DNA of 33,438 bases from a virus, in the IMG/VR virus record IMGVR_UViG_3300006923_000077, positions 1-33,438 of that record; one strand, given 5' to 3'. The notes under the pieces were generated by a model. The model worked only from the letters and a program-made list of their open reading frames with translations, did no database searches and was not told where the DNA came from. A program made the position numbers and the translations under genes. This document shows, in pieces, positions 3,363 to 28,316 of this stretch (the stretch's first letter is position 1; every line of letters starts with the position of its first letter).

Positions 3363-4298
3363 TTAGTAGCTTACCTGTTGTCCACCGGCTGGTTGACCGG
3401 GAGGACCTTGGTAACCACCTTGACCTTGCGGCGGCTGCTGATAACCACCTTGTTGTCCACCACCCTGGTTGCCTCCACCTTGGAAGTTAGTCTGTTGAGC
3501 GTTCGCCAATTCTTTCATGGCTTCCTCAACTTTCACAGGATCTGGAGCGATAAGATTCGCCCAGTCGTGGACAGCGTTGTCAGGGTACTGGGCCAGATCG
3601 ACCATTCCCTGGAACGAGAAATCATCACCAGTCTTAGGAGACTGGTTGTCTCGGCTGCGGAAGATCTTGAAGTGGGCTCCGCGAAGGGAGTGACCCATCG
3701 ACTGAAGCTCTTGCATCTTTCGCTCGAAACGCTCCATCACATTTTGCTTGAAGCAGATGATCGTCTTGAAGTTGTTGATTAACCCCTGCTTGGATTGGAA
3801 TCCAGTGCAGTCGATAGCCGACATCATCATCGCTTTGTAGCGACGTCCATCTTGTGCAGTCTCTGCACGTTGACACATAGGACAAGGAATCCCCAGCGGT
3901 TGCAAGCAACTGTAGTAGTGCTTGAATCGTTGGGCACCTTCCCCGAACTGGGGATTGTGTTCAAAGACAATGATGGGTCCACCTTGGGCGGGAGCAACGC
4001 CCCACTCCGTTAGGAAGATCACATCTTTGGACTCACCCTGCTTTATATAAAGACGATGGATCTCGTCCTTAAAATCTGTTTGGTCAGGGTTTGTCATGTC
4101 CTGTTGCATCCAATCCGGGGCTCCCGTACCAGCCTGTGGTTTCTCCGTATGTTGCGGAGTAGCTGGGGCTGCGGCGGGGGGAGTGGATACTGGAGCAGAA
4201 GGCTCCGGGGTTTGACCTGCACCAGAAAGGTAAGCAGGTGCAGCAGACTGCGGTGGGGTTTCATCTGGTTTGCCCATTGGGCTCTCTTCGTTGGACAT
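3363..4298 (-). CDS. Probable single-stranded DNA-binding protein with disordered tails
   Basis: The 311-residue product has a disordered Pro/Ala/Gln-rich N-terminus (about 1-75), a folded core (about 80-260) and a Gly/Gln-rich tail (about 268-311) ending QQVSY. The core holds a cysteine cluster (C...CPMC near 131-142, then further cysteines near 163 and 182) that could bind zinc, as in T4 gp32-like proteins. I call it SSB from that layout and from its position between primase and polymerase, not from a decisive motif. The tail is not acidic, unlike many SSBs. It has a strong ribosome binding site (AGGAGG), its own candidate promoter at 4366-4395 and its own terminator, which fits a protein needed in large amounts. 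Confidence 0.7.
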   Translation of the reverse strand: MSNEESPMGKPDETPPQSAAPAYLSGAGQTPEPSAPVSTPPAAAPATPQHTEKPQAGTGAPDWMQQDMTNPDQTDFKDEIHRLYIKQGESKDVIFLTEWGVAPAQGGPIIVFEHNPQFGEGAQRFKHYYSCLQPLGIPCPMCQRAETAQDGRRYKAMMMSAIDCTGFQSKQGLINNFKTIICFKQNVMERFERKMQELQSMGHSLRGAHFKIFRSRDNQSPKTGDDFSFQGMVDLAQYPDNAVHDWANLIAPDPVKVEEAMKELANAQQTNFQGGGNQGGGQQGGYQQPPQGQGGYQGPPGQPAGGQQVSY

Positions 4299-4303
4299 AT
4301 TGT

Positions 4304-4329
4304 CCTCCTGGGGTTCTGGGCTGTCGCCC
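4304..4329 (-). promoter_or_regulatory. SSB leader hairpin and ribosome binding site
   Basis: Just upstream of the SSB start the minus strand forms GGGC-GACA-GCCC, a GC-only four-pair stem with a GNNA-type loop. Nine bases later comes AGGAGG, spaced five bases from ATG. Phage single-stranded DNA-binding proteins (T4 gp32) are known to repress their own translation by binding a structured leader. That this hairpin is such an operator is inference only. Confidence 0.35.
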
Positions 4330-4330
4330 T

Positions 4331-5329
4331 TTAAATAATGTTCTCTGCTTGAAGCAGCGAGGTAAAGAATAGCTTATCGCACCCACCCATGTCAAGCTCC
4401 TTGGGCTTCCATGTGATGGTTCTGGGTTTCGACTGTAGGTTGACTAATTTCTTCATGCCTTCGGCTGCACCTTTGATCCCGGCGTCGTCCATATCGAAGA
4501 ACAAATAGACATGGGTGTCAAGCTCTTGGAGGATCTTTGCTTGCTCGTCGGTGACCTTCGCCCCGAACGTACAGAGGACATCAAGTTCGTGGCACTGCGC
4601 CCAATACCAGATGTTCATCATATCGAAAAAGCCTTCGACGAGGATCGTCCTGCCGTAGCCTTTCCAATGCTGCAAGCCTCCTAAGATTCGACCGGTCTCC
4701 ATGCCGAAGTAGTTGTAGTATTTGCGAGAGTCATTAACGACTGTTCGACCGACTGCTCCATAGAGATGGTCTTCGTAAGGCTCTCGGCAATAAACGGGCT
4801 GGACAATCCGTTCGTAGTCATGGTGTCGAAGATCCCACCAATCAACCATAGCTTGGGTGACGTTCCGGCTTCTTAAAAAGTGGGTAAGTCTTCCCATAGC
4901 ATCCATGCCTATTTTAGGCATGTGTGCCAAAGCCTCGTACTTCATCATTGCCACAGGTTCTACCTCCGTTGTGGGTTGATACCAGTCGTCCAACCCTTGG
5001 GTGATCTTGTCAAGGGTGTCCCCGAGGGTGACTTGATCTGAGACCTGCAGACGCATACCGAGGTCGATCAGATCCTGTCTGCCGGAAAGACTTCCCACTG
5101 TGCTGACCAGGGAGTGTAGGGGTCCTTTCTCTTGGCAGGTGAAGCAGTGATAGACAGCGGGCGTCTTTGAGTAGTTGATCGAGCAGGAAGGCTTCCCGTC
5201 TGACCCACTCTTGTGCGTCCACTTTGCCAACGGACAGGTACAGAGCATCTGCCCTTTGTCACGAAACTTCTCGTTGAAGTCGGTGACCCCTGTCCTTGTC
5301 AAAATGTCTAACGCTCGCTCACGCTCCAT
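4331..5329 (-). CDS. DnaG-like DNA primase (zinc finger plus TOPRIM)
   Basis: This 332-residue primase makes RNA primers for the phage polymerase. The N-terminus holds a CHC2-like zinc-binding region with C30/C32, H39, C49 and the pair C62-C65. A TOPRIM domain follows, with the catalytic glutamate in LVEGFFD (E232) and the metal-binding acids in FFDMDDAG (D279, D281). It is shorter than bacterial DnaG and has no C-terminal helicase domain; the DnaB-like helicase is a separate gene upstream. The ATG follows GAGGGG and overlaps the end of the preceding 58-residue gene by 11 bases. A candidate promoter for the next gene lies inside its last 70 bases. Confidence 0.93.
   Translation of the reverse strand: MERERALDILTRTGVTDFNEKFRDKGQMLCTCPLAKWTHKSGSDGKPSCSINYSKTPAVYHCFTCQEKGPLHSLVSTVGSLSGRQDLIDLGMRLQVSDQVTLGDTLDKITQGLDDWYQPTTEVEPVAMMKYEALAHMPKIGMDAMGRLTHFLRSRNVTQAMVDWWDLRHHDYERIVQPVYCREPYEDHLYGAVGRTVVNDSRKYYNYFGMETGRILGGLQHWKGYGRTILVEGFFDMMNIWYWAQCHELDVLCTFGAKVTDEQAKILQELDTHVYLFFDMDDAGIKGAAEGMKKLVNLQSKPRTITWKPKELDMGGCDKLFFTSLLQAENII
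4366..4395 (-). promoter_or_regulatory. Candidate sigma-70 promoter for the SSB gene
   Basis: On the minus strand a perfect -35 box TTGACA (4395-4390) is separated by 18 bases from TATTCT (4371-4366), four of six matches to the -10 consensus. The predicted start near 4359 leaves a leader of about 60 bases before the SSB ATG. It lies inside the primase 3' end, so chance coding matches are possible. Having a terminator directly after the SSB gene supports a separate transcription unit. Confidence 0.5.
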
Positions 5330-5495
5330 GGCTTACCCCTCGACGTAAGCTAGAACGGAAGACCCAGTGGAATTCCTCTACTTGGGGCTGACAGTAGAGC
5401 CGCTTAACCGCAAGATGCAGAGCCTGTAGAAGGTCTGATGATTTCGCAGAGACTCTATCGTTCTTATACTCTTCATAGATGGTTCTATTTTCCAT
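5319..5495 (-). CDS. Small hypothetical protein, 58 aa
   Basis: The frame starts with ATG at 5495 inside the last codons of the preceding gene (11-base overlap) and ends 11 bases inside the primase gene. The product begins MENRTIYEEYKNDRVSAKSS and is rich in charged residues, likely mostly helical, with no membrane segment or metal motif. A longer reading upstream in the same frame looks like a shadow of the neighbouring gene, so the short form is chosen. Its place in the primase operon suggests an accessory replication or host-takeover role, but no function can be assigned. Confidence 0.6.
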   Translation of the reverse strand: MENRTIYEEYKNDRVSAKSSDLLQALHLAVKRLYCQPQVEEFHWVFRSSLRRGVSHGA

Positions 5496-5739
5496 GCGTG
5501 TGTTGCCAACCGTTCTGCCAATGCGCCCACTCACGCATAATGACGTAAGGGTTCTGGTCTTTCTTCTTGGCAGCAAGACCTTCAACGTAGGGATGGTCGT
5601 CAGGTCCCCCATGCTTCCTTATCACAAACTGCTCATGGTAGAACGCCTGCGTACCAAAGGGAGCCTTCGCTCGAAAGATCTCTTCCCTATCGGTGATGTT
5701 TGAGATTGTGATTCGCTTTGGCCCCTCGTTGCGGCCCAT
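5485..5739 (-). CDS. Small hypothetical protein, 84 aa
   Basis: The ATG at 5739 opens an 84-residue product (MGRNEGPKRITISNITDREE... ending QHTHGK). Its first 53 bases overlap the 3' end of the preceding 161-residue gene in another frame. No clear ribosome binding site precedes it, so it is probably translated by coupling. The frame stays open further upstream, but there it becomes a Ser/Pro/Thr-rich string typical of a shadow reading, so that part is left out. It is rich in aromatic and basic residues. No known domain is recognised. Confidence 0.6.
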   Translation of the reverse strand: MGRNEGPKRITISNITDREEIFRAKAPFGTQAFYHEQFVIRKHGGPDDHPYVEGLAAKKKDQNPYVIMREWAHWQNGWQHTHGK

Positions 5740-6172
5740 GGTTCGTTTTGAAGGGGATGCTTTTCTTTTTCCCTTTTTGGAATCGGAATCCGGGCTTGGC
5801 GTTTTTGGCGGGGACTGCGGGGGGCTCTCCGTCGATGACGAGCTGGGAGATGGAGTCTGCGATGAAGACTCCGGCTTTGGCAGTGATGGCGTCCCCGATT
5901 GAGCCATAAGTATTTGTAAACTGCTCGACCGTAACTCCGGCTTTGCTGGCAGCTCGGGACATTCTGTGGAGGGCTTCTTCGGCATCTGTGGTCTCCTTGT
6001 TATTGAATTGTTGGTACTCCATGTACCCTTGACTGTAAAGTTTCTTAATCGGGATCTTGACGACTGCGGTACTCCAACCGGTATCGCCATACTCACCTCT
6101 GTTGTAGGTGTGGAGCCTATATTCCCCTTGGGCGTAGTCATGGTATTGGGCTATTGCTCTCACCTTGTCCAC
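5687..6172 (-). CDS. Hypothetical protein, 161 aa, in replication module
   Basis: The 161-residue protein has an aromatic, beta-rich N-terminal part (about 1-55), a helical middle (about 56-115) and a strongly basic C-terminal tail rich in Lys, Asn and His (about 120-161) that may bind nucleic acid. The start is GTG, 13 bases inside the previous small gene. I do not recognise the family. Its position between helicase and primase suggests a DNA-binding accessory factor, which is inference from context and charge only. Confidence 0.65.
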   Translation of the reverse strand: MDKVRAIAQYHDYAQGEYRLHTYNRGEYGDTGWSTAVVKIPIKKLYSQGYMEYQQFNNKETTDAEEALHRMSRAASKAGVTVEQFTNTYGSIGDAITAKAGVFIADSISQLVIDGEPPAVPAKNAKPGFRFQKGKKKSIPFKTNHGPQRGAKANHNLKHHR

Positions 6173-6327
6173 CCATGTTTGCTTTCTAATTCATCCAAAA
6201 CATCACCCCAGAGGTTTCTACGAGTTTCGCCTGTAGCATAAAGTGTCTTGTGGGGTATGTCCATCCAGCGTGGCTCTTTGCCTCCACCCCTGCGAACCAT
6301 TACGCAATACGTGAGGGGTAGTTTCAT
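6160..6327 (-). CDS. Small hypothetical protein, 55 aa
   Basis: The ATG at 6327 lies two bases after the helicase stop and opens a 55-residue product (MKLPLTYCVMVRRGGGKEPR...HGWTR). The frame continues 13 bases into the next gene. The sequence looks like a compact beta hairpin followed by a helix (ETRRNLWGDVLDELESK). No family recognised. The same frame extends upstream into the helicase, but the position right after the helicase stop favours the short form. Confidence 0.55.
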   Translation of the reverse strand: MKLPLTYCVMVRRGGGKEPRWMDIPHKTLYATGETRRNLWGDVLDELESKHGWTR

Positions 6328-6329
6328 TT

Positions 6330-7592
6330 TTATATCCCAACCGTCGCTGAGTGCGAGGTGTCGAAAACTAATTCGTCGAAGTTCATCGTAGTAAGATCCC
6401 AATTTGTTATCAGATCCTCGTGATGGTTTTCACCTTTGGAGTCACGCTCCTTCAGGTTCTTCCAGGTCATTTCGTTTTGCAATCTCTGGTCTTCGTCGGC
6501 AATCATTTCGATGACTACGTCGGGGTCGATGATCCACTCTCGGGCGTATCGGATTTTGTAACCTCGCTGCTTGTCTGTCTTTTTGGAGTTGTCGGTGACG
6601 TCTCCTTGCTGCGTAGTAACCACCCAAGGAACGTCTGACACTTCTGAAGCAGTTTGTAAATCCCCCACGATTTGAGCAGCGCTACCCCAGTCGCCTCTTC
6701 CCTTCTCGCCTGTGAAGCGGTAGCCCCCATCAACAACAACGAGGTCAGGTTCATATTCTTTGACGAGAGCAGTAACATCGGAAACCGTCTGGACGAGTTG
6801 TTTGTCAGCGATATGTATGTCGCCTTCGTCATACTTACCGTAATGGAGTTGTTGCTCCCATCTTCGTTCGGTGAAATAGTCCAACTCAGCATCTCGGAAG
6901 TCTCCCCAGGGGAGTTTGTGGTGGAGGACATCTAATCTCCTTTCAAATCGTTTGGTTGACATTTCCATGGTAACGAGTAGCACCCGCTTTCCGAGTCCCA
7001 TAGCGAAGTCGGAGAAGATACAGCTCGCCCACGATTTACCGGTGTTGGCTGTGGCAGCAATGACATGGAGCTGTCCGTTAGCCCAGCATTGGATTCGGTC
7101 GTTGAGACTGTTCCAAGGTGTAAGGACTCCAGGAAGTTCAAGAGAGGCTTGGAGGTCAAGGTATTCTTCAAATCGTTTCTCTCCATCTTGCCTAAAGGAT
7201 CGGACGACGGCTCCGCGTTTTCCAACTTGGTTTTGGAGAGCGATCTCTGCAATCTTGCGGAGGGCTGAGTCTGGGTCTTGTCCTTCAAGGGATCTGGCGA
7301 CTGCTTTGAGTTCATTGGTAATCGTCCCTCCTAGTTGGCGTTTTCGTACTTGGTCGCAGAGGTAGGCAAGGGGTTCGTCTGCCGGGGGGAAGACTAAACC
7401 CTTTATGTTGTCTTGGACTTGGGAGGGCGTCGGCCAAGCTCCAAAGTCTTGCTGGTATTCTGTTTGCCACTCAAATCCTTTTCGGGCAGTTCCCGAGAGG
7501 TCTCGTGAAGAAATTCCAGCGGTAGTTAACTCAATCAGTGACTGCTCAATAAGAACCGCTTTAAGCAGTCTCAGGCCCAGGACGTCTTCCAT
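6330..7592 (-). CDS. DnaB-like replicative DNA helicase
   Basis: This is a RecA-fold (superfamily 4) helicase that should unwind the fork 5' to 3' as a hexamer. From the ATG chosen here it has 420 residues. A DnaB-N-like helical region is followed by Walker A ATANTGKSW (about 180-188), an H1a-like block VLLVTMEMS, Walker B LVVVDGGY and a polar block VVTTQQGDV (motif H3). The start could also be TTG at 7643, adding 17 residues, but no ribosome binding site supports it; ATG at 7592 is preferred. Even so the gene overlaps the loader gene by 32 bases. The loader next to it supports the assignment. Confidence 0.9.
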   Translation of the reverse strand: MEDVLGLRLLKAVLIEQSLIELTTAGISSRDLSGTARKGFEWQTEYQQDFGAWPTPSQVQDNIKGLVFPPADEPLAYLCDQVRKRQLGGTITNELKAVARSLEGQDPDSALRKIAEIALQNQVGKRGAVVRSFRQDGEKRFEEYLDLQASLELPGVLTPWNSLNDRIQCWANGQLHVIAATANTGKSWASCIFSDFAMGLGKRVLLVTMEMSTKRFERRLDVLHHKLPWGDFRDAELDYFTERRWEQQLHYGKYDEGDIHIADKQLVQTVSDVTALVKEYEPDLVVVDGGYRFTGEKGRGDWGSAAQIVGDLQTASEVSDVPWVVTTQQGDVTDNSKKTDKQRGYKIRYAREWIIDPDVVIEMIADEDQRLQNEMTWKNLKERDSKGENHHEDLITNWDLTTMNFDELVFDTSHSATVGI

Positions 7593-8990: not shown

Positions 8991-10916
8991 CACCGGTCGG
9001 GTAACTCTCCAGATTGTTTTGTCCTGGAGGGATGTAATATCCACCAACCACTCAAAATTGGTGGTGGTCTCTCGGGCTGTGAAGTTGACAGAGGTGGTGT
9101 CGTCCGTGTTGATTACCGTCGTGGAGATGTCCCCGCCGGAATCGTAGATTCGGAAATCCAAGGTCTGGATTCCTACTCCGGTTGTCTCAGAGTGGGTGAA
9201 GGAAATTGTATAATCCTCCCCTACGATAGTATGCTCCTGGGTGAGATCCACGGTGCCTGTGTCTGTACCTGAGGTGGGAGGTACTGCCTTGAAGGACATG
9301 ACGGTTCCCGCGAGATTGATCTTGTAGTCGCCCTCCGTTACTACCCACTGGTTGGTTGGCCCATGGAGACTTGGGTGCAGGATTAGGTTCTGCGAAGTGT
9401 AGGTCGTGGAGCCCAGATCCTCGGTGGATTCAATCACAAGGTTCTGCTTGCCCTCTCCGTCCTGCCACTGGGTGTCTATACCTACGACCAATCCCGTGAT
9501 TACAGTCTGGGTGCCATCCGTCAATTTTGGATCTCGGAATGTTACAAGATCGTTGATTGACACTCCCGGCAAGATGACAGTCTCCACCTTCCAACTCTTC
9601 TGTGCCATCTTTCTCTCTTGGAGATGACGTACCCCTACTTGGAAAAGTGTAGCGGGGTGCTCTATGTACGGATTATCGATCTGCTCGGATAAAGGTCCAT
9701 GCTTGCTTTGAAGATCGGAGTCATCTATCGTCATCTCAATCTGGAGGTCGGTCCTTTCTGTGGCAGATCGTGTGGGACTTCTCTGGGATTCCCCTCCAGG
9801 ACTTCCTCCCCCACCTGCCATGTTCCCGTTAGGAGGTCTCCCGTTTAGCCGTCTCGCCATCTCTTGGAGTGCATGATCTCCCTTCTTGTTTTTCTGATCC
9901 TCCTTGGGTTTAACTTTCTTCTCCCTCTCAGGTTGTGGTTGCCCTAGCACTGAGATGTCAATTTCGGAGGCTGCGGAGAAGAATCCTGTCACTTTCTCTG
10001 CTACAAACTTAGCACCTGTTGACCACATACCCTCCCAATGAGAGAACGTAGAACCGGCTACCACTACCTCTGCGTTTTTCAAAACCTTTTGTTCGTGTTC
10101 CTCTCCATGCTGCCTTGGAACTTCGACGATAAACTCACCTAGTTTAGCGGGCAAACCTTTGTTCATACAGCGGACTCGGGAGCCTTGACTATCACCTTGA
10201 CCTCCTTGACCAGAACCTCCTCCGGAGTCCTGCAACTCTACAGGAGAGGTAGGCATCTGCGAGACCCAGCAGCCCCGGACCTTAACGCGACTGGGGATGA
10301 TTTCTTCATTCATCGCTCGCTGGGCTGAGATGATGAACTCGTCTGGGATCGTATAAGCCGCTGCGGCTGTCAGGTCAGTCCACTCTTGGAGTTGGAGTAT
10401 CCCAACTTCATCCACATAGAGTGCGCCTAATCCCGCCTGTGCGACCCGTTTAAGCTCGTCTAGGATATTTGACCCTGTGATAGGTCCGCATACTGTGCGA
10501 GCCGCTAGAGAGACGCTGTAGATCCCTGACGGGACTCCTGCGTATTCGTCAAGGATTGTGGTAGCGGCTGCGGTGGCTTCCCCGATATTCACCTCAGTGT
10601 TGACCGGCTTCTTCGTCAGCCTCGCGAAGAAAGATTTTACGGCAAAGCCTATCATCCTCTCTGAGATTCCGGTCTTCTCGTCGATCCCTTCGAGGAGCCC
10701 GTTGACGTAGAGCTTGCTGCCGTTGAGGATGGTTATATCCCCGCTGGCTACATTGGCAACCGTAGAGGTGGTTGTGGTGGTGATGTTGATCACTTCGGCA
10801 AGATTAGTCTCGCCGTAGTTGGAATCTTTGTTCACCACTGAGAGGCTTGCGGTGTAAGAGCCTCGGTACGATGCCCTAGAGGACCAATTGATTATGTCAG
10901 AAGTCGTTATTGTCAT
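8967..10916 (-). CDS. Tail tip / baseplate-hub-like structural protein with C-terminal carbohydrate-binding-like domain
   Basis: This 649-residue protein follows the distal tail genes. Residues about 110-215 contain a pattern seen in siphophage tail-tip proteins (SNILDELKRVAQAGLGALYVDE, then a segment naming a coordinate check of the axis). A disordered Lys/Gly/Pro-rich linker covers about 330-385. After another beta-rich region, the last 140 residues look like a jelly-roll carbohydrate-binding module (NLILHPSLHGPTNQWVV... IQTLDFRIYD...). It would sit at the tail end and contact the host surface. The start ATG overlaps the stop of the upstream gene (ATGA). Family assignment is by pattern and position. 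Confidence 0.55.
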   Translation of the reverse strand: MTITTSDIINWSSRASYRGSYTASLSVVNKDSNYGETNLAEVINITTTTTSTVANVASGDITILNGSKLYVNGLLEGIDEKTGISERMIGFAVKSFFARLTKKPVNTEVNIGEATAAATTILDEYAGVPSGIYSVSLAARTVCGPITGSNILDELKRVAQAGLGALYVDEVGILQLQEWTDLTAAAAYTIPDEFIISAQRAMNEEIIPSRVKVRGCWVSQMPTSPVELQDSGGGSGQGGQGDSQGSRVRCMNKGLPAKLGEFIVEVPRQHGEEHEQKVLKNAEVVVAGSTFSHWEGMWSTGAKFVAEKVTGFFSAASEIDISVLGQPQPEREKKVKPKEDQKNKKGDHALQEMARRLNGRPPNGNMAGGGGSPGGESQRSPTRSATERTDLQIEMTIDDSDLQSKHGPLSEQIDNPYIEHPATLFQVGVRHLQERKMAQKSWKVETVILPGVSINDLVTFRDPKLTDGTQTVITGLVVGIDTQWQDGEGKQNLVIESTEDLGSTTYTSQNLILHPSLHGPTNQWVVTEGDYKINLAGTVMSFKAVPPTSGTDTGTVDLTQEHTIVGEDYTISFTHSETTGVGIQTLDFRIYDSGGDISTTVINTDDTTSVNFTARETTTNFEWLVDITSLQDKTIWRVTRPVLTMTITA

Positions 10917-12655
10917 TCGTCATCAGCCAAATAGAATTCGGGAATCACAGAGCTGTTGGATTCTTTCCCCCAAATCTGATGTTGCAGATGGAGGATCTTA
11001 TCCTTTGCTATTCTTTCCAAATCATAACGCCTAATCATCCCTTCCGATTCTAGCACTTGTGTTGCCCTAGTTGGAGGGATTACGGGCGTACCCCAAGTAT
11101 ATTGGGGATCGAATCTTAATAAAGCCCAATCATAGTTCTGGGCGATTCTTGTAAAGGCTATTGTGACGTTCTCTTTATCTCCGCTCTCGGTTGCTATTCG
11201 ATCATGGAGGTCGGTTGCGACCAAGACGTCCGCTTCCGGCCAAGGGTCGGAGAGGGCTTGGTGCTTCAACTTGGAATTCAAAGCAGAGTCATACCTCTCA
11301 AGGGCTTCCCCATCCCATTCCAATCCTGTGACGTTAACCTTCTCCCGGCGAGCCTGCCTTAAAAAGTCTCCCGTAAAGGAACCTAGCTCCAAAACAGAGT
11401 CACCCAGCGTAAGGGAACACTTGGCCGCAGCTTTGAAGATCTGCGGCATGAACGCCTGCTTTGTAAACCCATAGCGGTATTTATATTTGGCTGTCTCCTT
11501 GAGGTACTGGCTCCCTTTACAGACTGCTTCAAAATCTAGTGCCACCTGGGACTGCTCGTATCTTCGGGCGTAAGTGGCGGCATCTCTTATAGCGTCCGCT
11601 TGCATATCGGGATCTGCCAGGAAATCTAAAGTTCTATCAACCATTGCTCTTACATCGGGAACAGCCCACAAGGAATCGTTCTTTGGTTCCCACAGAGCAG
11701 GCTCTACCAACTGAGGATTGTCCTCCCCTATTAGCTCAGGTAGTGCCGTATGTTTGCTAACAATCTGCGGGTGACACAACGCCGCGCACTCTACTGTAGG
11801 GATGCCAAAACCCTCACCCTCTGATGTGGTGATTCTTAGATCGCTAAGAAGGACAAGCTCTCGAAGTTCTTCTCGGGAAAGACCCTTGTTCCAATCGAAG
11901 TCTGTGTAGATGACTTCGTCTTGTAAACCATAAAGGCTTTCCATCTTCTTTAAATCAAAACCTTCCGGATGCCCGCCCTCTTGGATCTGGTTCATTTTAG
12001 TGTGGGCTAGAAGTCTGATTCGTCTATCAGGCATCTCCTGTTTCAATTGGCGAATGTAATCAAAGGTAGCATCCCACCTCTTATGCCAAATGTTTCTGTC
12101 CATGTTAAGTACAATGAAGGTGTTGTCCCTCATTGGGGCGTTCAGCTTGTCCTCCCACTTCTCTCTAAGCTGGGATCTATCGTGCTTGAGGGGATACCAA
12201 ACTCTAGGATCATACCCATGGGGTATCACCAAAGAAGAAGGGAACACAGGTTGCCAGAGCTTTCTAGCAAACTCTGTCAAGTGTGTCAGACCTTCCGGGG
12301 GCATTCCTGTAAAGTGTAAGGCTGCGTCGTCTTTGATGGTGGAGCCTTCATAGGGGAACCAGAAGAAACAAGGACAGTTTGCAGGGGCTGAAGTTGAGCC
12401 CAGGTAACCTTGGATTCCTCCGGGATGGTGGAAGAAGATACAAGCGTCCGGTGCAACGTCGTGGATCTCAGGGTCAAGCTCTTTCATGTCAAAACCGTTT
12501 GACATTCTTCTCTCCTCTACACCCTCTATCTCTATGATGGGCATAGGGATCTGCTGGGAAAGAAGTGTCACTTCATGCCCAAGCTCTGCTAGTCCTTGGA
12601 CGAGTAGTCGGACCTGTTGGCCGAAACCCGCTAGGGAATGATGGTGATTCTCCAC
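10913..12655 (-). CDS. GT4-type glycosyltransferase fused to a SAM methyltransferase; 5' end frameshifted
   Basis: The N-terminal half is a GT-B glycosyltransferase with the GT4 signature SEGEGFGIPTVECAAL (about 278-293). A methyltransferase domain follows with VLELGSFTGDF (421-431) and the acidic loop GLEWD. It probably adds and methylates a sugar on a phage or host target. The frame as written begins with GTG and lacks the first beta strand. That strand, MKIVVCGESPSFPSG, is encoded immediately upstream from ATG 12671 in another frame and joins it through a +1 shift at TTT-C (12626-12623), giving the expected family start ...PSFPSGFGQQVRLL. This is either a programmed frameshift or a one-base insertion. 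The 3' end overlaps the next gene by four bases. Confidence 0.85.
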   Translation of the reverse strand: MENHHHSLAGFGQQVRLLVQGLAELGHEVTLLSQQIPMPIIEIEGVEERRMSNGFDMKELDPEIHDVAPDACIFFHHPGGIQGYLGSTSAPANCPCFFWFPYEGSTIKDDAALHFTGMPPEGLTHLTEFARKLWQPVFPSSLVIPHGYDPRVWYPLKHDRSQLREKWEDKLNAPMRDNTFIVLNMDRNIWHKRWDATFDYIRQLKQEMPDRRIRLLAHTKMNQIQEGGHPEGFDLKKMESLYGLQDEVIYTDFDWNKGLSREELRELVLLSDLRITTSEGEGFGIPTVECAALCHPQIVSKHTALPELIGEDNPQLVEPALWEPKNDSLWAVPDVRAMVDRTLDFLADPDMQADAIRDAATYARRYEQSQVALDFEAVCKGSQYLKETAKYKYRYGFTKQAFMPQIFKAAAKCSLTLGDSVLELGSFTGDFLRQARREKVNVTGLEWDGEALERYDSALNSKLKHQALSDPWPEADVLVATDLHDRIATESGDKENVTIAFTRIAQNYDWALLRFDPQYTWGTPVIPPTRATQVLESEGMIRRYDLERIAKDKILHLQHQIWGKESNSSVIPEFYLADDE

Positions 12656-12671
12656 ATACTACGATCTTCAT
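12573..12671 (-). other. N-terminal piece of the GT4 glycosyltransferase in the zero frame, ending after a +1 shift site
   Basis: From ATG 12671 the frame reads MKIVVCGESPSFPSGF and then runs out of phase (RPTGPTTR...) to a TGA at 12575-12573. Skipping one base at GGG-TTT-C makes it continue perfectly into the long glycosyltransferase frame. The ATG overlaps the HNH stop (ATGA), so it is positioned to be translated. The phenylalanine tRNA could re-pair from UUU to UUC, and the next zero-frame codon is CGG. Both features favour +1 slippage, but a simple extra T is equally compatible. Confidence 0.7.
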
Positions 12672-13192
12672 AATGCCCTACCTCCTTTTCTTCTAATGAG
12701 ATTCTGAATCCGGGAGATGGTAGAGGGGGCTACCCCGTACCTCTCCGATAAAACTGCTAAGGTTTCCTTACCCTTCAAGGCTCGCATCTCCTCTACTTGA
12801 TCTTCTGTAAGCTTGGAGTTCCCGTGTTTACTCCCCTCCAGAAAAGTCCCTGTCTTTTTCTTATCCTCGTAGTTATTCTGGGAGCGGGTGCCCCAAGTAA
12901 GGTTTTCTAACTTGGGGTTTCCCTGATCTCCATCTAGGTGTCGAGATTCCCAACCTTCGGGACAGGGACCTTTGAGAACCAAGAGCACTAAGCGGTGGAC
13001 TAGGTACTTCTTGCGGTTAGAGAGGGTTACCATAGGGTAACCTTTATTATTGTAGAAAGGGGTCAAAGGTTTCCAAGTCTCGGAGACCTTTCTCTTTCCT
13101 GGCCCGTTAGGGACTAGACAGCTCCACACTACCCCAGAAGGATCTACGCCATATCCAGGTTCTATTCCTGGAAGTTGTATTGGAATAATCAT
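12668..13192 (-). CDS. HNH homing endonuclease
   Basis: The 174-residue protein has a NUMOD4-like N-terminus (YGVDPSGVVWSC), an HNH nuclease core (about 71-107) with HRLV..., ESRHLDGDQGNPKLENLTWGT, and a C-terminal helix-turn-helix region (NSKLTEDQVEEMRALKG then VAPSTISRIQNL) of the kind that reads DNA at the target. Such enzymes cut one or both strands of related genomes and spread themselves. It is flanked on both sides by copies of the same glycosyltransferase 5' end, with ATGA overlaps at both borders. It is therefore a free-standing homing endonuclease inserted at or beside a glycosyltransferase gene. No intron core was recognised. Confidence 0.93.
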   Translation of the reverse strand: MIIPIQLPGIEPGYGVDPSGVVWSCLVPNGPGKRKVSETWKPLTPFYNNKGYPMVTLSNRKKYLVHRLVLLVLKGPCPEGWESRHLDGDQGNPKLENLTWGTRSQNNYEDKKKTGTFLEGSKHGNSKLTEDQVEEMRALKGKETLAVLSERYGVAPSTISRIQNLIRRKGGRAL

Positions 13193-13293
13193 GCTTGGAG
13201 TTTAGCAAAGACTTTGCCAATTTGCAAGCCTGTTGTCCAAAGCATTTTAAGTGATGGAAAAGAGGGGGACTCCCCGCAAACTACAATCTTCAT
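13189..13293 (-). pseudogene. Second glycosyltransferase 5' fragment upstream of the HNH gene
   Basis: ATG 13293 opens a 34-residue frame whose first 14 residues, MKIVVCGESPSFPS, are identical to the N-terminus at 12671. Most of those codons differ by silent changes. After a short LKM segment the glycosyltransferase homology continues in the +1 frame (FGQQACKLAKSLLNSKHD, matching FGQQVRLLVQGLAELGHE in spacing of hydrophobic residues and the final H-acid). It then stops at the HNH start. The zero-frame stop overlaps the HNH ATG (ATGA). I read it as the remnant of a related glycosyltransferase gene cut off by the HNH insertion. It has a plausible ribosome binding site (AGAAAGA) and may still be translated as a leader peptide. 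Confidence 0.7.
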
Positions 13294-13331
13294 GGGGTTC
13301 TTTCTAAATCTATTCTAAATAAAGTAAGCCG

Positions 13332-13682
13332 CTACTTGCATTTCTTACAAGTCTTCTTTGGGGGAGGAGGGTTCCTATCTGTACCCTCGTTCCCGCTTAG
13401 GCCCGCTGCCGCCCATTTGGACTGGGGGTAACCAAGCTTCTCTTCGCCATACTTGCAACCGTACTTCTCAGTTTCGACGAATCGTGCAAGGTTAAACAAA
13501 CCGGAGTCTGCGACGGAACAGCCGCAAACCCCGCATGCCATAAGCTCACCCCTTGGCTGTACCAGAGGGCACTCCCGGCAAATCTCCAGCCTTGCCAGCA
13601 TCACTTCCTTGCTTACTGTTGTTCCGTTTATTAGAGCGCTTGCTAGGCTTGCCGTTTTTTGGAAGAGGTTCTTCTTTGCCAT
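13332..13682 (-). CDS. Small cysteine-rich, probably zinc-binding protein
   Basis: The 116-residue product has a helical N-terminus (about 1-33), then a cysteine cluster CREC (about 35-38), CGVCGC (about 50-55) and YGCKYG near 75, and a proline-rich end finishing CKKCK. Two CxxC pairs plus extra cysteines point to zinc binding. Similar small proteins occur among structural and glycosyltransferase genes of phages, with no known role. The ATG at 13682 makes it overlap the glycosyltransferase gene by 137 bases in a different frame. A shorter start at the methionine of codon 28 would still overlap by 56 bases. Confidence 0.75.
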   Translation of the reverse strand: MAKKNLFQKTASLASALINGTTVSKEVMLARLEICRECPLVQPRGELMACGVCGCSVADSGLFNLARFVETEKYGCKYGEEKLGYPQSKWAAAGLSGNEGTDRNPPPPKKTCKKCK

Positions 13683-15129
13683 CGTCTATTGTATCCGTAA
13701 CTGCGAGACCTTTGACCGGAGACTTCTTAGCCTTCGGTTTCTTTTTAGTGGGTTTAGCTTCACCATCTGGATGGAAGTTTCTACGTCGAGCATCCATCTT
13801 GTTGTCTTCGATAGACATCTTACCATAACCCATCTGCTCAAACATTGCAGGGCTTTGGTGGATACCTCGACGACCTATGTACAACCCCCGGTTTACATTT
13901 GGGGCAAGCAGTAGAAAACCGGCTCTTTGCATTGAACACAAAGTCGCTGCGTCTTGCCCGGTTGCCGGGGAGTCCCAATACTTGGCAAGCTTGTCTTTGT
14001 ATTCCTTGTTAACAGGGAAGGGCTTAGTGGAGTCCTTAGCACACTTCTTCAACACCTCTCGAAACCAAGGTCGAATAGTTTTGTTGGGCCTGTCATGGTA
14101 GAACGACTTGAGGAAGAGACGTTGATACTCAAGTATGGTCGGGGACATACCTTCCCAGCATTTGCGGGAGATCAAGTAGCCCCAGAGATTTGTCCTGGAT
14201 GCGTGGACTGTAGAGAGCTGCTCCTTCTTCTCCTCGCTACCCAACAAGCACTTGCTCCAACCTTGGACTACTCCTACATTGTCATAATTCTTCTCTCCCC
14301 AGAGCATAAGATTTCGACAGTACGTCAGGTATTCGGGAGAAGGGACCATGTCGTCTTCAAAGATATAAGCGTACTTATAATCCATGTTGGTGAGGAGTTG
14401 GTGACGTGCATCGATGATGTTCCGTCCGCAACCAAGATTGATCGGCCTGTGTATACAGTGGGCATGTGGGATCAACTTTTTGGCAAGCTCTTCATGCTCA
14501 ACCATCACATGGGTGTTACCAATTAAAGGTCTGTCGATAAAGATGTAGACGGGGTGCTTCTTCTCTCGAACCTCTGGGTTCTTACAGAGACCTTCAAGGA
14601 CTTCTTTAAAGTAGCTCAACCGGTCGCATGCGATGATCGCTATAGCTGTGTCGGATTGGATAGCGGGATCATAGTCGTCCGCTAGATTGTAAGCAACCGA
14701 CTCCCAATCAAGATTCTTGGGGACTGCATTGGCTTCTTTGTAAACTACGTCGGGAAGATGGTCAGCCGCTTCTACTCTAAGCTCATCCAGCTTCTTCTTC
14801 ATAAAGCGACCAGGGTCTGCCAAATCTCGCCAAACATTAGGAGAACCCTCTGGCTTCATAGCGAAGAGACCTTTTGTCTCAATGTCTCGACCTCGCCAGT
14901 GGCCTTGGCTATTGAGCTTCATTACGACCTTTAAAGAGCCGTCCTGTTTTCGCAGTAGAAGTTGGAGACCTTCTGCAGCTCTACGAAGAGCCCAGGTTGT
15001 AATCTCTCCCCCATTCTCTACTTCCTTGTTTTCCTTTAAAGAGATTTCGTGGGAAGGTTTGTCCGGCGGGTATGCCGTGAATTTCACGGTCTCATTGATT
15101 GCGTCAGTTCCATATCCAATAAGATTCAT
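13546..15129 (-). CDS. GT-A fold glycosyltransferase (GT13/GNT-I-like) with extra N-terminal domain
   Basis: Residues about 160-400 form a GT-A glycosyltransferase: the first strand IAIIACDRLSYFKEVLEGL, the middle INLGCGRNIIDARHQLL, and an acidic metal site YIFEDDMVPSPEY replacing the DXD motif. This resembles N-acetylglucosaminyltransferase I-like enzymes. About 155 residues before it form an unrecognised beta-rich domain that may anchor the enzyme or bind the acceptor. The last 75 residues are a Lys/Pro/Ser/Asn-rich disordered tail whose DNA also encodes the start of the next gene. It probably decorates a virion or cell-surface target. It lies among tail genes, which suggests virion glycosylation, but this is inference. 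Confidence 0.8.
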   Translation of the reverse strand: MNLIGYGTDAINETVKFTAYPPDKPSHEISLKENKEVENGGEITTWALRRAAEGLQLLLRKQDGSLKVVMKLNSQGHWRGRDIETKGLFAMKPEGSPNVWRDLADPGRFMKKKLDELRVEAADHLPDVVYKEANAVPKNLDWESVAYNLADDYDPAIQSDTAIAIIACDRLSYFKEVLEGLCKNPEVREKKHPVYIFIDRPLIGNTHVMVEHEELAKKLIPHAHCIHRPINLGCGRNIIDARHQLLTNMDYKYAYIFEDDMVPSPEYLTYCRNLMLWGEKNYDNVGVVQGWSKCLLGSEEKKEQLSTVHASRTNLWGYLISRKCWEGMSPTILEYQRLFLKSFYHDRPNKTIRPWFREVLKKCAKDSTKPFPVNKEYKDKLAKYWDSPATGQDAATLCSMQRAGFLLLAPNVNRGLYIGRRGIHQSPAMFEQMGYGKMSIEDNKMDARRRNFHPDGEAKPTKKKPKAKKSPVKGLAVTDTIDDGKEEPLPKNGKPSKRSNKRNNSKQGSDAGKAGDLPGVPSGTAKG

Positions 15130-17175: not shown

Positions 17176-17570
17176 TACACACCTCCGCAGGCAAGGGCAG
17201 AGTATTCAGTAGTGACAGAGATAACCTGGAACATTCCCGAGACCGAGAAGATCCTTCCCCTAACAGTAGGAGAATCCAATTGGACAAATTGAACTTGAAG
17301 GTCATCATCCCAGTAACCGGTGAATTGGTACTCGGTGAGGGACGCGGTATTGTAAAGGTCATAGAGGACTTTGAATTCGGCGGGTGTTGCAACTTGGATA
17401 GTCCAAGACAGTGTACCATCTCCATGCACAATTAAATCATCCGCTTCCTGAAGAATTACCGCACCTGCTGTGGGTGTGGTCGTCATCCTCTTCCGGGGAA
17501 CGTATAAGCTGTAGCTAAAGGATAAAGGTAGGTTGACCGAATTAAGAGTTGCTTGATACGCCATTGCCAT
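17175..17570 (-). CDS. Minor tail protein downstream of tape measure
   Basis: The 131-residue beta-rich protein lies directly after the tape measure, the usual place of the distal tail or minor tail protein. It has the alternating pattern of a tail-tube-like or distal-tail fold (LPLSFSYSLYVPRKR, DGTLSWTIQVATPAEFKVLYDLYN, FQVISVTTEYSALACGG). The ATG overlaps the tape measure stop (TAATG) and has an AGGAG site. Assignment is by position and general fold, not by a diagnostic motif. Confidence 0.6.
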   Translation of the reverse strand: MAMAYQATLNSVNLPLSFSYSLYVPRKRMTTTPTAGAVILQEADDLIVHGDGTLSWTIQVATPAEFKVLYDLYNTASLTEYQFTGYWDDDLQVQFVQLDSPTVRGRIFSVSGMFQVISVTTEYSALACGGV

Positions 17571-20500
17571 TAGACTTCTCCTACAGACATGTTAGCACTT
17601 GAGATTGCCTTTCCGATGTGACGAGTCACGTTATCCATATCTACGTTGTTGTTGATGTCCATTCGGACTGTGCGGTTATCATTGTTATTGGTAGTTGTAC
17701 CCCCACCTCCTCCACCAGAAGGAGCTTGCCCGCCTAGTCCCATGTAATGGGAGGGTGCAAGTCGCCCTAATTGTGGACCCTTCTTTGCCAAGGTATCAAC
17801 CATTCTATCGATACCTCCGGAGACGACTGCCACGTTGGAATCCCAAGTCTGTACTAAGGAGGGACTATGGGTCTTGTTCTTATCCATCTCCCCTTTGATT
17901 TCAGACATAGTCTTCGCTACCGCTGCGACCATTCTTTGGGAGTTTACTGCCCATCCCTCAAGGAACGCATTGACCCAGTGGACGGGTGCGGCTCGGAAGT
18001 CGTTCATCACTTGGATCATGCTGGCTCGCACAGCCAACTGCATCTGGTGGACACGTTTTTGCACCTCATCGATTTTGGCTTGGACTATAGCAGGATCACC
18101 ACCCGCACCTCCTACAGCTCCCGCGACTTGAGCCTCCTGGGCTCGCTTCTGCGCGAACTGATTTACGAGTTGACCTCGGGTTCGCATACGCTCAATAACT
18201 GCGTCCAGGCGTTTGACCTCGGTGTCATTACCATGACCTAAAGCCTTAGCCCGTCGCTGCTCAAGTCTTTCCAGGTTTTGCTGGAAGCGTACTGCTGTGT
18301 CAGCAGCTCGCATAGCCAGAGCCTCTTGCTGGAAACGTATGTAGTAGAGACCTTGGTAAAGAAGTATCAATTTCTGGACACTGTCCACCTGCTTGAGGAG
18401 AGCATCGGTAACTCGCTTCTCAAGGTCCGCTTCGTTCTTTGCTACGTCAGGCTTCTTACCAAGTTTCTTATCGGCATCTTTAGCCATAGCCTCTTGGGCT
18501 TTTTGGATACGATCTCTGGCTTGAGCTGCCAATAGTTCTTCGTTTTTGCGAGCCTGCTCTCCTACGATTCCAAGCTCTTTCATCTTGGCTCGCTCTTGCT
18601 CAAGGATCTTCTCGTTCTCTAGCTTGGCAGCTTCTACCCGATTTCCTTTACGCTTGGCTTCCTCGATCTTTAATTGTCGGTTGAAGTTCTTGCGGTCCTC
18701 TCCTTGCTTTCTAATTTTCTCCTTCTCAGCTTCGGCCTCTTTCTTCTTCTTCTCAGCCACAGCCTTTGTCTCTTCTTCCACTTCCTTACGTCGTTGCGCT
18801 TCGTTGGCGCGAGCTGCCTCCTGATTCTCTACTATGCCTGCTCTCGCATCTGCTATCTGCTGTGTTAATGCCGCTATTTTTTCCAAGTTCTCCTTGGTTC
18901 TCTCCTGCTCTTCTAGAAGTTTCTTCTGGGCTTTAAGATCTTCAAGGACTACCAGCATTTTCTCCCTGGCTAACCTCAAAGCTTCAGATCTCTCATTCTT
19001 CTCATCATCAATCTTGGCTATAGTTTTGTCCAAACCTTCCAGCTCTGCATCTCGAATATCTTTGAGGAGGTCTTTGTAATCCTCTGCTCCTTCTGCCAAC
19101 TCCTCTTGGGCAGCTATGAGTTCCTGCTGGGCAAGTCTCTGGTTAACCCAAGCCTCTGTTATCGCCTCAGAGGCTAAGACCCCGTCATTCCTCATCTTCC
19201 TAACAAACTCTAGATACTCTTGGTTGTGATCATTAACGATCTGTAACTGTGTTTTGTAACCCTTTAATGTCAATTCAGCTTGGGCAAGGGCGTCAGCCGC
19301 TTCTTTACGTGCATCGAGGTCATCCCCCGCCATTCGCAGTGTAGTCCGGGCTAGCTTAACTTCTTTCTCTTGTTGGGCTATATGATACTCGTGGACCTCT
19401 ATCTGCTCTTTGACGGTTCGTTCGGTGTCTTGGACTACAATTCTTAAAGTCTTTGCAACTTTAAGACTCTTCAAGCCTACTTCGTATTGCTTCTCCCGAT
19501 TGGCAAGATCCGCTTCCAGTAAGGTCTTTGTTTCCCCATCTTCCAACCTGTTTATTGTCCGTTTAAGAGTAATCATCGTCATCATCTGCTCGTCTAAGCT
19601 TGCGGTTAAATCCTCAACGGATTTCCCACCCTCTTCCCAACTCTCCGTCAACTCATTAAGTTTTGTTCCTGTCAGCGATGCACTCTTCCCTAGATCATCA
19701 TAAAACGAGGCAGCGTCTCTAACCTCTTTACCCATCCTCTTGGCACCGTCTGAGTGCTGCATCCAGTCAAGCTGGTTCATCTGCTCGGCAGTCATACCCA
19801 TACTGGCAGCCATGTCCGAAAAGGATTGGCCTACCTTTTTTGAGTCGTCCGCTAGAAGACCAAACCAAACTAAGAGCCTTTTTGCCAAGCCAAGTAGGAA
19901 GCTTAAACCACCTATCACTATCCAAATAGGTGAGGTGAGTGCCACAATAGAGCCTATCAAGGCTCCCCCGAGAATAGCTGCGAGTCCTACAAGAATGGCT
20001 GTGAGGTATTTTACAACTATAGCGACCCCTTCTATAACTATATAGAAACCTTCCCACCCTCCTACAGCCCAGAGTACAGCCTTCATCACCGTTGCCATAA
20101 CGGTGCCTACGACCTTCAGACCTAAGTATAGACCTTCTAAGAAAGCCTTACCTATATCCCACACAGCCTTTGCCACTACGTTCAGCACCTCGGTAAAGAA
20201 CTCAAAGTCTGCAACCATTACTGCTATAATTGCAACCAGGGGTGATAAGAGAACTAAGAGTGCTGCAGCCCCTATAAGAAAGGCTTCCCAGAAAACGACT
20301 ACCAACGTGATGACTGGAATCAAGGCACCAAGGGCTGTAAGCAAAGCCCCTGCTACTCCAAGGACAACAGAGAGTGCTGCCGCTGCTGCTCCAAAAATTG
20401 CAACAGACTTTACAAAGGAGGCCACTACGTCCTTGTTAGCTTTCGCCCACTCATTGAAGGATCTTACTACACCCGTTATCTTGTCTAATGCTTTCTGCAA

Positions 20501-21589
20501 AGCGCCTTGGAAGGTTTGGAAAATTGTGATCCCCAAGCCTTGGATGATCGATTTAAGCTCGGTGAACGAGCCTATGACGGAGTCCATGCGGATCTCTGCC
20601 ATGGTTCTTGCGGCACCTGTAGCACCTTCTATGTGTCCCTGAATCTTCTTCATCGCATCAGAACCTTGGTTCTTCAGCGCAAGCATTTGTCTACCGGCAC
20701 GAACACCAAAGATCATCAAAGTGTCAGTGGCACTGATGTTGGCGTCTTCAAAAGTTTCAACAATCTCCGTAAGAGATTTGATTTCAGGGTTGATGTCTTG
20801 GATCGTGAGTCCGTACTTCCCTAAAGTCTCCTGGGCTTTCTTTGTACCCTTAGAGGCTTGGGATAATACTTGACCAAGTCCCGCACCTGAAACAGAACCT
20901 TTGATACCTGCATTGGCTAGGACACCAAGGGCTGCTGCAGTTTCTTCAAGAGATTGACCAAAGGCTTCTGCGATTGGTGCAGCTAGTTGGAAAGAGAACC
21001 CCAGCTTTTCAACAGAGGTGTTAGTGTTTGCTGCAGTAACGGCGATGACGTCAGTAACACGAGCTAGATTAGAAGCCTCGATGTTAAAGGCTCGCATCGT
21101 ATCTACTGCGATTTCAGAGGCTCGTGCAAGTTCAAGGTTACCTGCTGCAGCAAGATTAAGAACCTCGCCTACACCAGCTAATACCTCCTCAGTGTTCAGA
21201 CCCGCTAACGCCATGAACTTCATGGCTTCTGCAACCTCTGTTGCTGTAAAGCGAGTAGTCTCTCCTAACTCTTGGGCCTTTGCTGTTAGCTTGGCAAAGT
21301 TCGCGGCGGCGTCTGTGCTTGCCTCGCTGGCATCCTTCATCACCGCTTTGACATCTTGCATCGCCTGTTGGAATTTACCACCCAGGAGTACGATGGGAGT
21401 CAGGGCAGCGGCGACCGCTAGAGAGAAGTTACGAAGACCTCGACTTGCACTTGTAAGGGCAGAGCCTACCTGCGTGGCTGCTGCCCCCAACTTCTGCATA
21501 CTTGCCTGAACGGTTGTTGCACCGTTTTGGATCTGCCGTACCCCTGTCATGGAGATGTGCAGAATCGCTTGACCTAATTTACTCGCCAT
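17570..21589 (-). CDS. Tape measure protein (TP901 family)
   Basis: At 1339 residues this is the largest gene in the window. The N-terminal 60-340 region matches the TP901 tape measure core (FQQAMQDVKAVMKDASE, LGETTRFTATEVAEAMKFMALAG, NTNTSVEKLGFSFQLAAPIAEAFG). Long hydrophobic helices follow at about 390-580, then extended Glu/Lys/Arg-rich coiled coils at about 690-1150 and a Gly/Asn-rich end. It sets tail length. Using the known relation of about 1.5 angstroms per residue, the tail would be near 200 nm. It starts immediately after the chaperone frame ends. The hydrophobic part may help DNA cross the host membrane. Confidence 0.97.
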   Translation of the reverse strand: MASKLGQAILHISMTGVRQIQNGATTVQASMQKLGAAATQVGSALTSASRGLRNFSLAVAAALTPIVLLGGKFQQAMQDVKAVMKDASEASTDAAANFAKLTAKAQELGETTRFTATEVAEAMKFMALAGLNTEEVLAGVGEVLNLAAAGNLELARASEIAVDTMRAFNIEASNLARVTDVIAVTAANTNTSVEKLGFSFQLAAPIAEAFGQSLEETAAALGVLANAGIKGSVSGAGLGQVLSQASKGTKKAQETLGKYGLTIQDINPEIKSLTEIVETFEDANISATDTLMIFGVRAGRQMLALKNQGSDAMKKIQGHIEGATGAARTMAEIRMDSVIGSFTELKSIIQGLGITIFQTFQGALQKALDKITGVVRSFNEWAKANKDVVASFVKSVAIFGAAAAALSVVLGVAGALLTALGALIPVITLVVVFWEAFLIGAAALLVLLSPLVAIIAVMVADFEFFTEVLNVVAKAVWDIGKAFLEGLYLGLKVVGTVMATVMKAVLWAVGGWEGFYIVIEGVAIVVKYLTAILVGLAAILGGALIGSIVALTSPIWIVIGGLSFLLGLAKRLLVWFGLLADDSKKVGQSFSDMAASMGMTAEQMNQLDWMQHSDGAKRMGKEVRDAASFYDDLGKSASLTGTKLNELTESWEEGGKSVEDLTASLDEQMMTMITLKRTINRLEDGETKTLLEADLANREKQYEVGLKSLKVAKTLRIVVQDTERTVKEQIEVHEYHIAQQEKEVKLARTTLRMAGDDLDARKEAADALAQAELTLKGYKTQLQIVNDHNQEYLEFVRKMRNDGVLASEAITEAWVNQRLAQQELIAAQEELAEGAEDYKDLLKDIRDAELEGLDKTIAKIDDEKNERSEALRLAREKMLVVLEDLKAQKKLLEEQERTKENLEKIAALTQQIADARAGIVENQEAARANEAQRRKEVEEETKAVAEKKKKEAEAEKEKIRKQGEDRKNFNRQLKIEEAKRKGNRVEAAKLENEKILEQERAKMKELGIVGEQARKNEELLAAQARDRIQKAQEAMAKDADKKLGKKPDVAKNEADLEKRVTDALLKQVDSVQKLILLYQGLYYIRFQQEALAMRAADTAVRFQQNLERLEQRRAKALGHGNDTEVKRLDAVIERMRTRGQLVNQFAQKRAQEAQVAGAVGGAGGDPAIVQAKIDEVQKRVHQMQLAVRASMIQVMNDFRAAPVHWVNAFLEGWAVNSQRMVAAVAKTMSEIKGEMDKNKTHSPSLVQTWDSNVAVVSGGIDRMVDTLAKKGPQLGRLAPSHYMGLGGQAPSGGGGGGTTTNNNDNRTVRMDINNNVDMDNVTRHIGKAISSANMSVGEV

Positions 21590-28017: not shown

Positions 28018-28316
28018 CAGCATTTCTCCAGTTCTACGGAACTTGGTCCGTCTCTGTGTAACTCTACGGCACCCGGATTAAGCACTTGCTTCTCGAATGC
28101 AACAACACTTGGACCTACTCTCGCCAAGCCTACTGTACTAACCCCCTGCTTTGTGCAGGCGACTGCACTTGGACCTTGCCTCTCTAACGAAACTGCCCCT
28201 ACACAAATAGGTACGTCAGCTATGGAGGGTATATACCCAAGCGTGATTACATCCCCGACACTACCTACAAGAGTTCCGTTCCCGAAGCCTAATGTAATAA
28301 TCGTGTTTACGGACAT
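28017..28316 (-). CDS. Small repeat protein, 99 aa
   Basis: The product has a glycine-rich N-terminus (TLGFGNGTLVGSVGDVITLGY) and then about three degenerate 20-residue repeats centred on GPS: RQGPSAVACTKQ, RVGPSVVAFEKQ and RDGPSSVELEKC. The regular spacing suggests a small repetitive beta structure, possibly a connector or spike on a fibre. The start overlaps the upstream stop (TAATG). No family name can be given. Confidence 0.6.
   Translation of the reverse strand: MSVNTIITLGFGNGTLVGSVGDVITLGYIPSIADVPICVGAVSLERQGPSAVACTKQGVSTVGLARVGPSVVAFEKQVLNPGAVELHRDGPSSVELEKC

Follow-up and report, generated by a model that had tools for sequence, protein, structure and literature searches.

How does the gene for a putative homing endonuclease come to lie between two copies of the start of one glycosyltransferase gene, when the glycosyltransferase sequence behind each copy lies in another frame? 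The question is raised by the virus record IMGVR_UViG_3300006923_000077, whose 33,438 bases were analysed as a whole and are referred to here as the window; the locus is read on the minus strand. The reading that we favour, at a rough probability of 0.45, is that an HNH endonuclease cassette brought in, from a diverged allele, the 5′ end of the glycosyltransferase gene, and that the resident gene needs a +1 frameshift.

Two copies of a gene start around an HNH gene

The 14 residues MKIVVCGESPSFPS are encoded at 13293 and again at 12671, and the agreement of 14 out of 14 rules out a chance repeat. Between the copies lies an open reading frame (ORF; 12668-13192) for an HNH_3 endonuclease of 174 residues (PF13392, E 5e-10; phrog_59, E 3e-27), and a PF13392 score of 39.3 bits against a curated cut-off of 24.8 identifies its HNH_3 domain. 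The gene is joined to each copy by an ATGA overlap: its ATG overlaps the TGA of the upstream ORF, and its own TGA overlaps ATG 12671. Rfam gave 0 matches at the gathering score over the whole window; no recognised intron surrounds the HNH gene, and a group I intron-encoded endonuclease is rejected on this result.

The two 14-codon stretches differ in 11 of 14 codons and 13 of 42 nucleotides without a single amino-acid change, a pattern that appears to reflect an old split, with selection acting on frame 0. Read in the +1 frame, the same codons show no such conservation. An earlier note on this DNA had described the position and identity of the two starts, the HNH gene with its two overlaps, and the mostly silent codon differences, and all of these hold. 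It had also spoken of two copies of the same glycosyltransferase N-terminus; the common origin stands, but neither copy continues in frame into the enzyme.

The upstream copy is a frame-0 ORF of 34 codons (13189-13293), MKIVVCGESPSFPS followed by LKMLWTTGLQIGKVFAKLQA; its stop shares bases with the start codon of the HNH gene, at the place of the conserved GHE/KHD codons. Beyond codon 14 its +1 frame continues as FGQQACKLAKSLLNSKHD, which resembles FGQQVRLLVQGLAELGHE (best-of-three-frames score 31, null mean 16). The +1 reading LKCFGQQACKLAKSLLNSKHDYS aligns with GFGQQVRLLVQGLAELGHEVTLL of the enzyme at this score of 31, the other frames giving 12 and 9, and 6 of 5000 dinucleotide shuffles reached it (P 0.0012). 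A family-profile test of the +1 frame gave P 0.0035 and 0.004. These values are suggestive, and only suggestive, of a frame split shared by the two copies.

The frame break in the downstream gene

From ATG 12671, frame 0 opens with MKIVVCGESPSFPSGF, then runs out of the glycosyltransferase frame and stops after 32 codons (12573-12671). A Shine-Dalgarno-like AGGAGG (12681-12686, by eye) stands 9 nucleotides before this ATG. The body of the enzyme (10913-12622) lies in the +1 frame, as part of a large ORF (10913-12655) with an in-frame TAG ahead of it and a mechanical start at GTG 12655, before which no Shine-Dalgarno sequence was seen by eye. The body is that of a GT4 glycosyltransferase with a GT-B fold (PF00534, E 1.6e-9; phrog_2170; structural model), with a C-terminal extension past about residue 380.

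The proposed +1 shift site is GGG-TTT-C (12623-12629). If TTTC at 12626-12623 is taken as one step, the translation becomes MKIVVCGESPSFPS-GFGQQVRLL..., a protein of 585 residues (P0001), and the predicted peptide across the junction is ...SPSFPSGFGQQVR. The protein is unchanged if the step is placed one codon further on, and a slip on GGG-T gives the same N-terminus; whether the move is from GGG to GGT or from TTT to TTC, the joined product reads S-G-F-G.

With the two frames joined at GGG-TTT-C, the N-terminus of the family is restored. Against an N-terminal profile of 28 relatives, with the window enzyme excluded, the joined form scores 45.9 bits, frame 0 alone 10.6 and the GTG form 29.3; these relatives had been picked for their similarity to the enzyme, with start codons selected near its residue 1, which makes this test not wholly independent. 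Scores against phrog_2170 are 96.8 bits for the joined form (from profile position 3) and 91.3 for the GTG form. Among the ORFs of related loci that match the joined protein, 68 of 88 can be aligned across the junction without a change of frame. The remaining 20, whose matches begin at residue 14 (one ORF, at the end of a contig) or further on, are uninformative. The glycine at the break, Gly15, does not vary among 32 aligned sequences. A single protein family is split over frames 0 and +1 in the downstream gene, and the enzyme reaches 37.9 bits against PF00534 (Glycos_transf_1; cut-off 26.4), which together with its modelled GT-B fold places it in GT4. In an AlphaFold2 model (29 sequences), strand 1 falls at residues 2-7 and helix 1 at 15-29, with blocks of predicted local distance difference test score (pLDDT) 85-91; the best PDB match of the GT-B part is 3oy2 (E 4.3e-20). 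The model is poor from about residue 380 on. Residues about 380-585 of P0001 (10913-11530) form an extension with a VLELGSFTGDF stretch, without a Pfam match and of low model confidence. This stretch recalls S-adenosylmethionine-binding methyltransferases. Gene callers that follow open frames would begin the enzyme at GTG 12655, probably the wrong place.

The break is present in the window, in a near-identical contig and in a more distant relative, that is, in two genotypes and three records; an assembly or sequencing slip is therefore ruled out. It hints at a programmed ribosome slip, without proving it.

A relative without the HNH gene

The IMG/VR contigs nearest to the window are 3300025133_000100 (63 kb), with 2 mismatches in 15,947 bases compared, and 3300025112_000010 (65 kb; L005 below), which matches at 92.8-95.7% across the blocks compared. 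Strong mosaicism against L005 is seen at 17982-17789 and 16289-15889, where 23-32 differences per 100 alignment columns stand beside near-identical blocks. A third contig (L094) has only neighbouring genes in common with the window. The patterns used recovered only two genotypes, that of the window and that of L005.

Searches beyond these contigs returned little that is close. With the glycosyltransferase as query, 3 and 6 phage records were found, all below 60% identity, together with 2 matches among viral contigs; bacterial genomes gave no match. The HNH protein matched 499 phage records, all below 60% identity and counted as protein matches rather than neighbourhoods, and 2 viral contigs, namely the near-identical one and a 33% relative; among the ORFs listed for 4000-6500 of the latter, no such glycosyltransferase start was seen by eye. 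The neighbouring tail gene and a neighbouring gene of 527 residues gave 3 and 2 matches among viral contigs, and a DNA search of phage records gave none. The peptide VCGESPSFP has 2 matches in the viral collection, nowhere beyond the copies of this locus; its pattern occurs in 8 stretches of bacterial genomes, and in none of these does the translation, judged by eye rather than by profile, run on into a glycosyltransferase.

L005 lacks the HNH gene. Only one such glycosyltransferase is present there; it shares the break, the Shine-Dalgarno sequence and, base for base, the first 66 nucleotides of the downstream copy. L005 has no upstream 34-codon frame. The earlier note had proposed that HNH-less relatives be inspected for one or two glycosyltransferase genes, and had named an independent 34-codon gene in such genomes as a sign against its view; one gene was found, and no such frame. 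Since L005 carries the downstream start, this start is the lineage's own and the upstream start would be the foreign or displaced one. The upstream copy is preceded by a leader, TATTTAGAATAGATTTAGAA (13302-13321), which resembles the leader of the L005 glycosyltransferase at 18 of 20 positions, counted by eye on the alignment without a chance control. The final HNH codons (from about 12691) lie inside sequence common to that L005 leader.

Unshifted, frame 0 runs for 67 codons in L005 and 32 in the window; frame 0 beyond the break is therefore not kept. The joined genes of the two differ at 99 bases, of which 84 are synonymous and 15 non-synonymous (ratio of non-synonymous to synonymous rates, dN/dS, 0.042), and 82 of the 99 fall in third positions of the +1 frame.

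The cassette is held in a 1.8-kb island of divergence from L005 (11657-13473, first to last differing base). On one flank, from 15400 to 13474, there are 9 differences, 8 of these in 14413-14332, and on the other, from 11656 to 10378, a single one. Inside the island, differing bases number 25 of 133 on the left side of the cassette and 98 of 949 on its right side (10-19% divergence). An exchange tract thus surrounds a gene that a near relative lacks, and an island of this kind in a near-identical backbone is the trace to be expected of co-conversion at a homing event.

A proposed course of events

We propose that a free-standing, homing-type HNH gene entered a marine phage by recombination with a diverged relative. 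The cassette would have brought the donor's pre-gene leader and the first ~100 nucleotides of the orthologous glycosyltransferase. This captured 5′ end would now be the broken 34-codon cistron, with its stop coupled (ATGA) to the HNH start, and the nuclease would be translated by coupling to this remnant. The resident glycosyltransferase would have stayed intact downstream of the HNH gene, and the 3′ end of the HNH gene reads through the resident leader. Both alleles would carry a +1 frame break after codon 14-16. Translation of the resident gene would begin at ATG 12671, by coupling or from its own strong Shine-Dalgarno sequence, and a +1 shift at GGG-TTT-C would produce a normal GT4 N-terminus (strand 1 and the SGFG loop). 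From codon rules, re-pairing of tRNA-Gly on GGU or of tRNA-Phe on UUC is predicted to give the same product.

Of the two explanations in the earlier note, homing with a foreign 5′ end fares better than replacement of a paralogue. It gains from the single gene with the downstream start in L005 and from the island of divergence, and is supported in part; the frame break had gone unseen. A further idea, which we consider rather unlikely, gives the break a role of its own: the invariant G-loop codons would straddle an ancestral, conserved +1 site, and in the captured fragment ribosomes that do not shift would end exactly on the HNH start and reinitiate there, so that the break would supply translation of the nuclease.

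Signals and precedents for a frameshift

Several observations weigh against this course of events, and the first concern the shift itself. Classic stimulators were not seen: there is no in-frame stop at the site and no Shine-Dalgarno sequence just before it (by eye), and RNA folds over four stretches are unremarkable (z -1.62, -0.08, 0.45 and -1.22), which rejects RNA structure as a stimulator. A family-alignment search of viral contigs confirmed at least 475 distant relatives among 600 candidates listed, and among the best 80, which were examined, no such break was found. A search for one slip word, the exact pattern with TTTCGG, found it in 61 viral records, among which only the phage's own two contigs are glycosyltransferases by profile.

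The joined forms of the upstream copy also score low against the family profile (5.7 and 8.9 bits for two joinings, 4.4 for frame 0), and however joined this copy is without the invariant glycine. Its insert consists of 10 nucleotides that replace the Gly codon, and that of the downstream copy of 4 nucleotides; both are +1 relative to a normal gene. The upstream copy may simply have decayed, and its +1 phase would then be coincidental. As to independent lineages, the two genotypes have the break in common only within an identical patch, and the upstream copy, at P 0.0012, lacks that glycine.

Other sources of a shift were tried and rejected. A phage-encoded shift-suppressing tRNA finds no candidate, as no tRNA gene was found in the window or at the loci L004, L005, L092 and L093 (the loci within contigs of 63-65 kb). 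Phase variation calls for a homopolymer or tandem repeat of 7 nucleotides or more near the break, by the criterion in the excerpted text of PMC3711429, and only GGGTTT was seen there by eye. In 29 hand-chosen ORFs of the window, in-frame TTTCGG was found 0 times with 0.66 expected, which is uninformative. In the same ORFs, C is the next base after 12 of 135 in-frame TTT and 44 of 187 TTC. The scarcity of TTT-C perhaps marks a shift-prone word, or simply a context bias.

The identical patch and alternative readings

Three further points against the proposed course of events come from the comparison with L005. Window and L005 are mosaic elsewhere too, so that an island of this kind does not point to homing alone. 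A gene of about 195 residues stands at the place of the cassette in L005 (5344-5928), which makes replacement rather than insertion possible. This gene has no Pfam match and no match in phage records, and a search of viral contigs returned 1 match, itself. By eye, its last bases resemble those just before the upstream copy in the window. The third point is a patch of 86 nucleotides inside the island (12606-12691) that is identical between window and L005 and holds the leader, codons 1-22 and the break. At the rate of the island, taken as uniform, the chance of such identity is about 8.5e-5. Either constraint on a recoding site or a small recent exchange would give it. Recombination may have passed the break between the genotypes in recent times, and the low dN/dS may be older than the break. 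If the patch was exchanged recently, dN/dS is silent on life with the break, and the upstream copy is then the sole, modest sign of its age. The direction of the exchange cannot be polarised, because only two genotypes are at hand.

These observations lead to the most serious rival, which we regard as doubtful: the gene would be freshly broken, by a 1-nucleotide insertion in the GGGTTT region that spread with the 86-nucleotide patch. The N-terminus would then be cut off, leaving residual or no enzyme, perhaps made from GTG 12655. The patch, with 0 differences beside 98 differing sites in the neighbouring 949 nucleotides, is what such a history predicts, as is the lack of any other phage glycosyltransferase with this break among those examined; the GTG-start ORF still reaches 29.3 bits. 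However, the diverged upstream copy has the same break phase, it is ATG 12671 and not GTG 12655 that has a Shine-Dalgarno sequence, and the copies do not agree in the +1 reading of their first 14 codons. The identity of the patch would also follow from constraint on a recoding site.

The second reading of the earlier note, in which the upstream copy is what is left of a tandem paralogous glycosyltransferase after the HNH gene took the place of its body, is unlikely. The old synonymous divergence fits a paralogue as well as a foreign orthologue. Nevertheless, no positive evidence for it was found: L005 has one such gene and a different gene at the place of the cassette, VCGESPSFP is found nowhere else in the viral collection, and the upstream leader resembles that of the single gene in L005.

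The nearest published architecture that we found, going by the excerpted text of PMC3630166, is that of fungal mitochondrial endonuclease ORFs which carry a foreign gene end (Allomyces atp6; Glomus atp6, atp9, cox2 and nad3). There, as here, an endonuclease ORF stands between two copies of one gene end, with near-identical protein, diverged silent sites and one copy thought to be foreign. In the fungi, by contrast, the C-terminus is duplicated, the foreign copy works and the endonucleases are LAGLIDADG or GIY-YIG; here the N-terminus is duplicated, the working copy is that of the HNH-less relative, and the endonuclease is HNH. A mirror image of the fungal case would have the element carry the downstream 5′ end (the 86-nucleotide patch), with the upstream copy as the displaced native start and the break as the product of a sloppy junction. 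We hold this to be very unlikely, even though the patch, with its edge at nucleotide 67 and the break at nucleotides 43-49, looks like a transferred 5′ end and the same architecture is described for Glomus in that excerpt. L005 has the downstream start without the HNH gene, and the element must then have been lost there; in addition, the break is in both copies.

Least probable is that the two insertions, which differ but fall on the same ten bases, are scars left by repair after cutting by the neighbouring HNH enzyme and gave immunity to further cutting: both copies are altered at the same codons beside a nuclease gene, but no cut site is known, no uncut allele is at hand, and phage DNA breaks are repaired mostly by recombination.

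Relation to known systems

Homing with a foreign 5′ end and frameshifting would bring together two known processes, and the locus perhaps works like intronless homing plus programmed +1 frameshifting. In phage T4, according to the excerpted text of PMC2988022, mobE and nrdA overlap start to stop in UAAUGA, and intronless homing co-converts flanking donor DNA. The T4-like seg and mob systems resemble the present locus in having a free-standing endonuclease gene, co-converted flanks and a start/stop overlap with a neighbour. They differ in that here a diverged start of the downstream gene has been left upstream of the endonuclease gene, and in that cutting is putative here. 

The joined enzyme shares with phage GT4 proteins (phrog_2170; PDB 3oy2, Chlorella virus B736L) the fold, the (S/T)G(F/Y)G loop and the catalytic-domain profile, and differs in an N-terminus encoded in another frame and an extra C-terminal region. 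Programmed +1 frameshifting is known from the motifs CUU-UGA-C of prfB and CUU-AGG-C of Ty1. As in those genes, there is a short frame-0 ORF, a body in the +1 frame, a P-site codon able to re-pair, and a family protein restored by the shift. Unlike them, the site has no visible in-frame stop or Shine-Dalgarno-type stimulator, it is conserved within two genotypes, and the shift would be obligatory for the whole enzyme.

Among the matches listed in literature searches over titles and the starts of abstracts, neither +1 recoding of a phage glycosyltransferase nor a duplicated gene 5′ end at a phage endonuclease came up, which is not proof of absence; the word glycosyltransferase has 0 occurrences in the main text of PMC5009743 and PMC3711429 as excerpted. 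If the +1 shift is true, a phage enzyme would owe its N-terminal nucleotide-sugar-binding loop to recoding alone, a case apart from the usual examples among release factors and tail chaperones. Even without the shift, the locus sets a homing-type endonuclease next to a copy of a phage gene's 5′ end that has diverged at silent sites, the N-terminal mirror of the fungal mitochondrial ORFs with foreign C-termini.

Other features of the window

Beside the locus, two same-strand ORFs (13332-13682 and 13546-15129) overlap by 137 bases. The protein of the second is 100% identical in L005, and that of the first differs only near its C-terminus. At 5485-6172, two long ORFs overlap in different frames, with the same arrangement in L094 (3570-4266); they are either overlapping genes or a second frame break. 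Two overlapping ORFs at 21590-22359 lie beside the tape-measure gene (17570-21589, PF10145), presumably at the position of the tail-chaperone frameshift pair. An ORF of 933 residues (28316-31117) contains several copies of a TNTDMRGTDSANTVVPMTAALSQTEHDATQ-like repeat.

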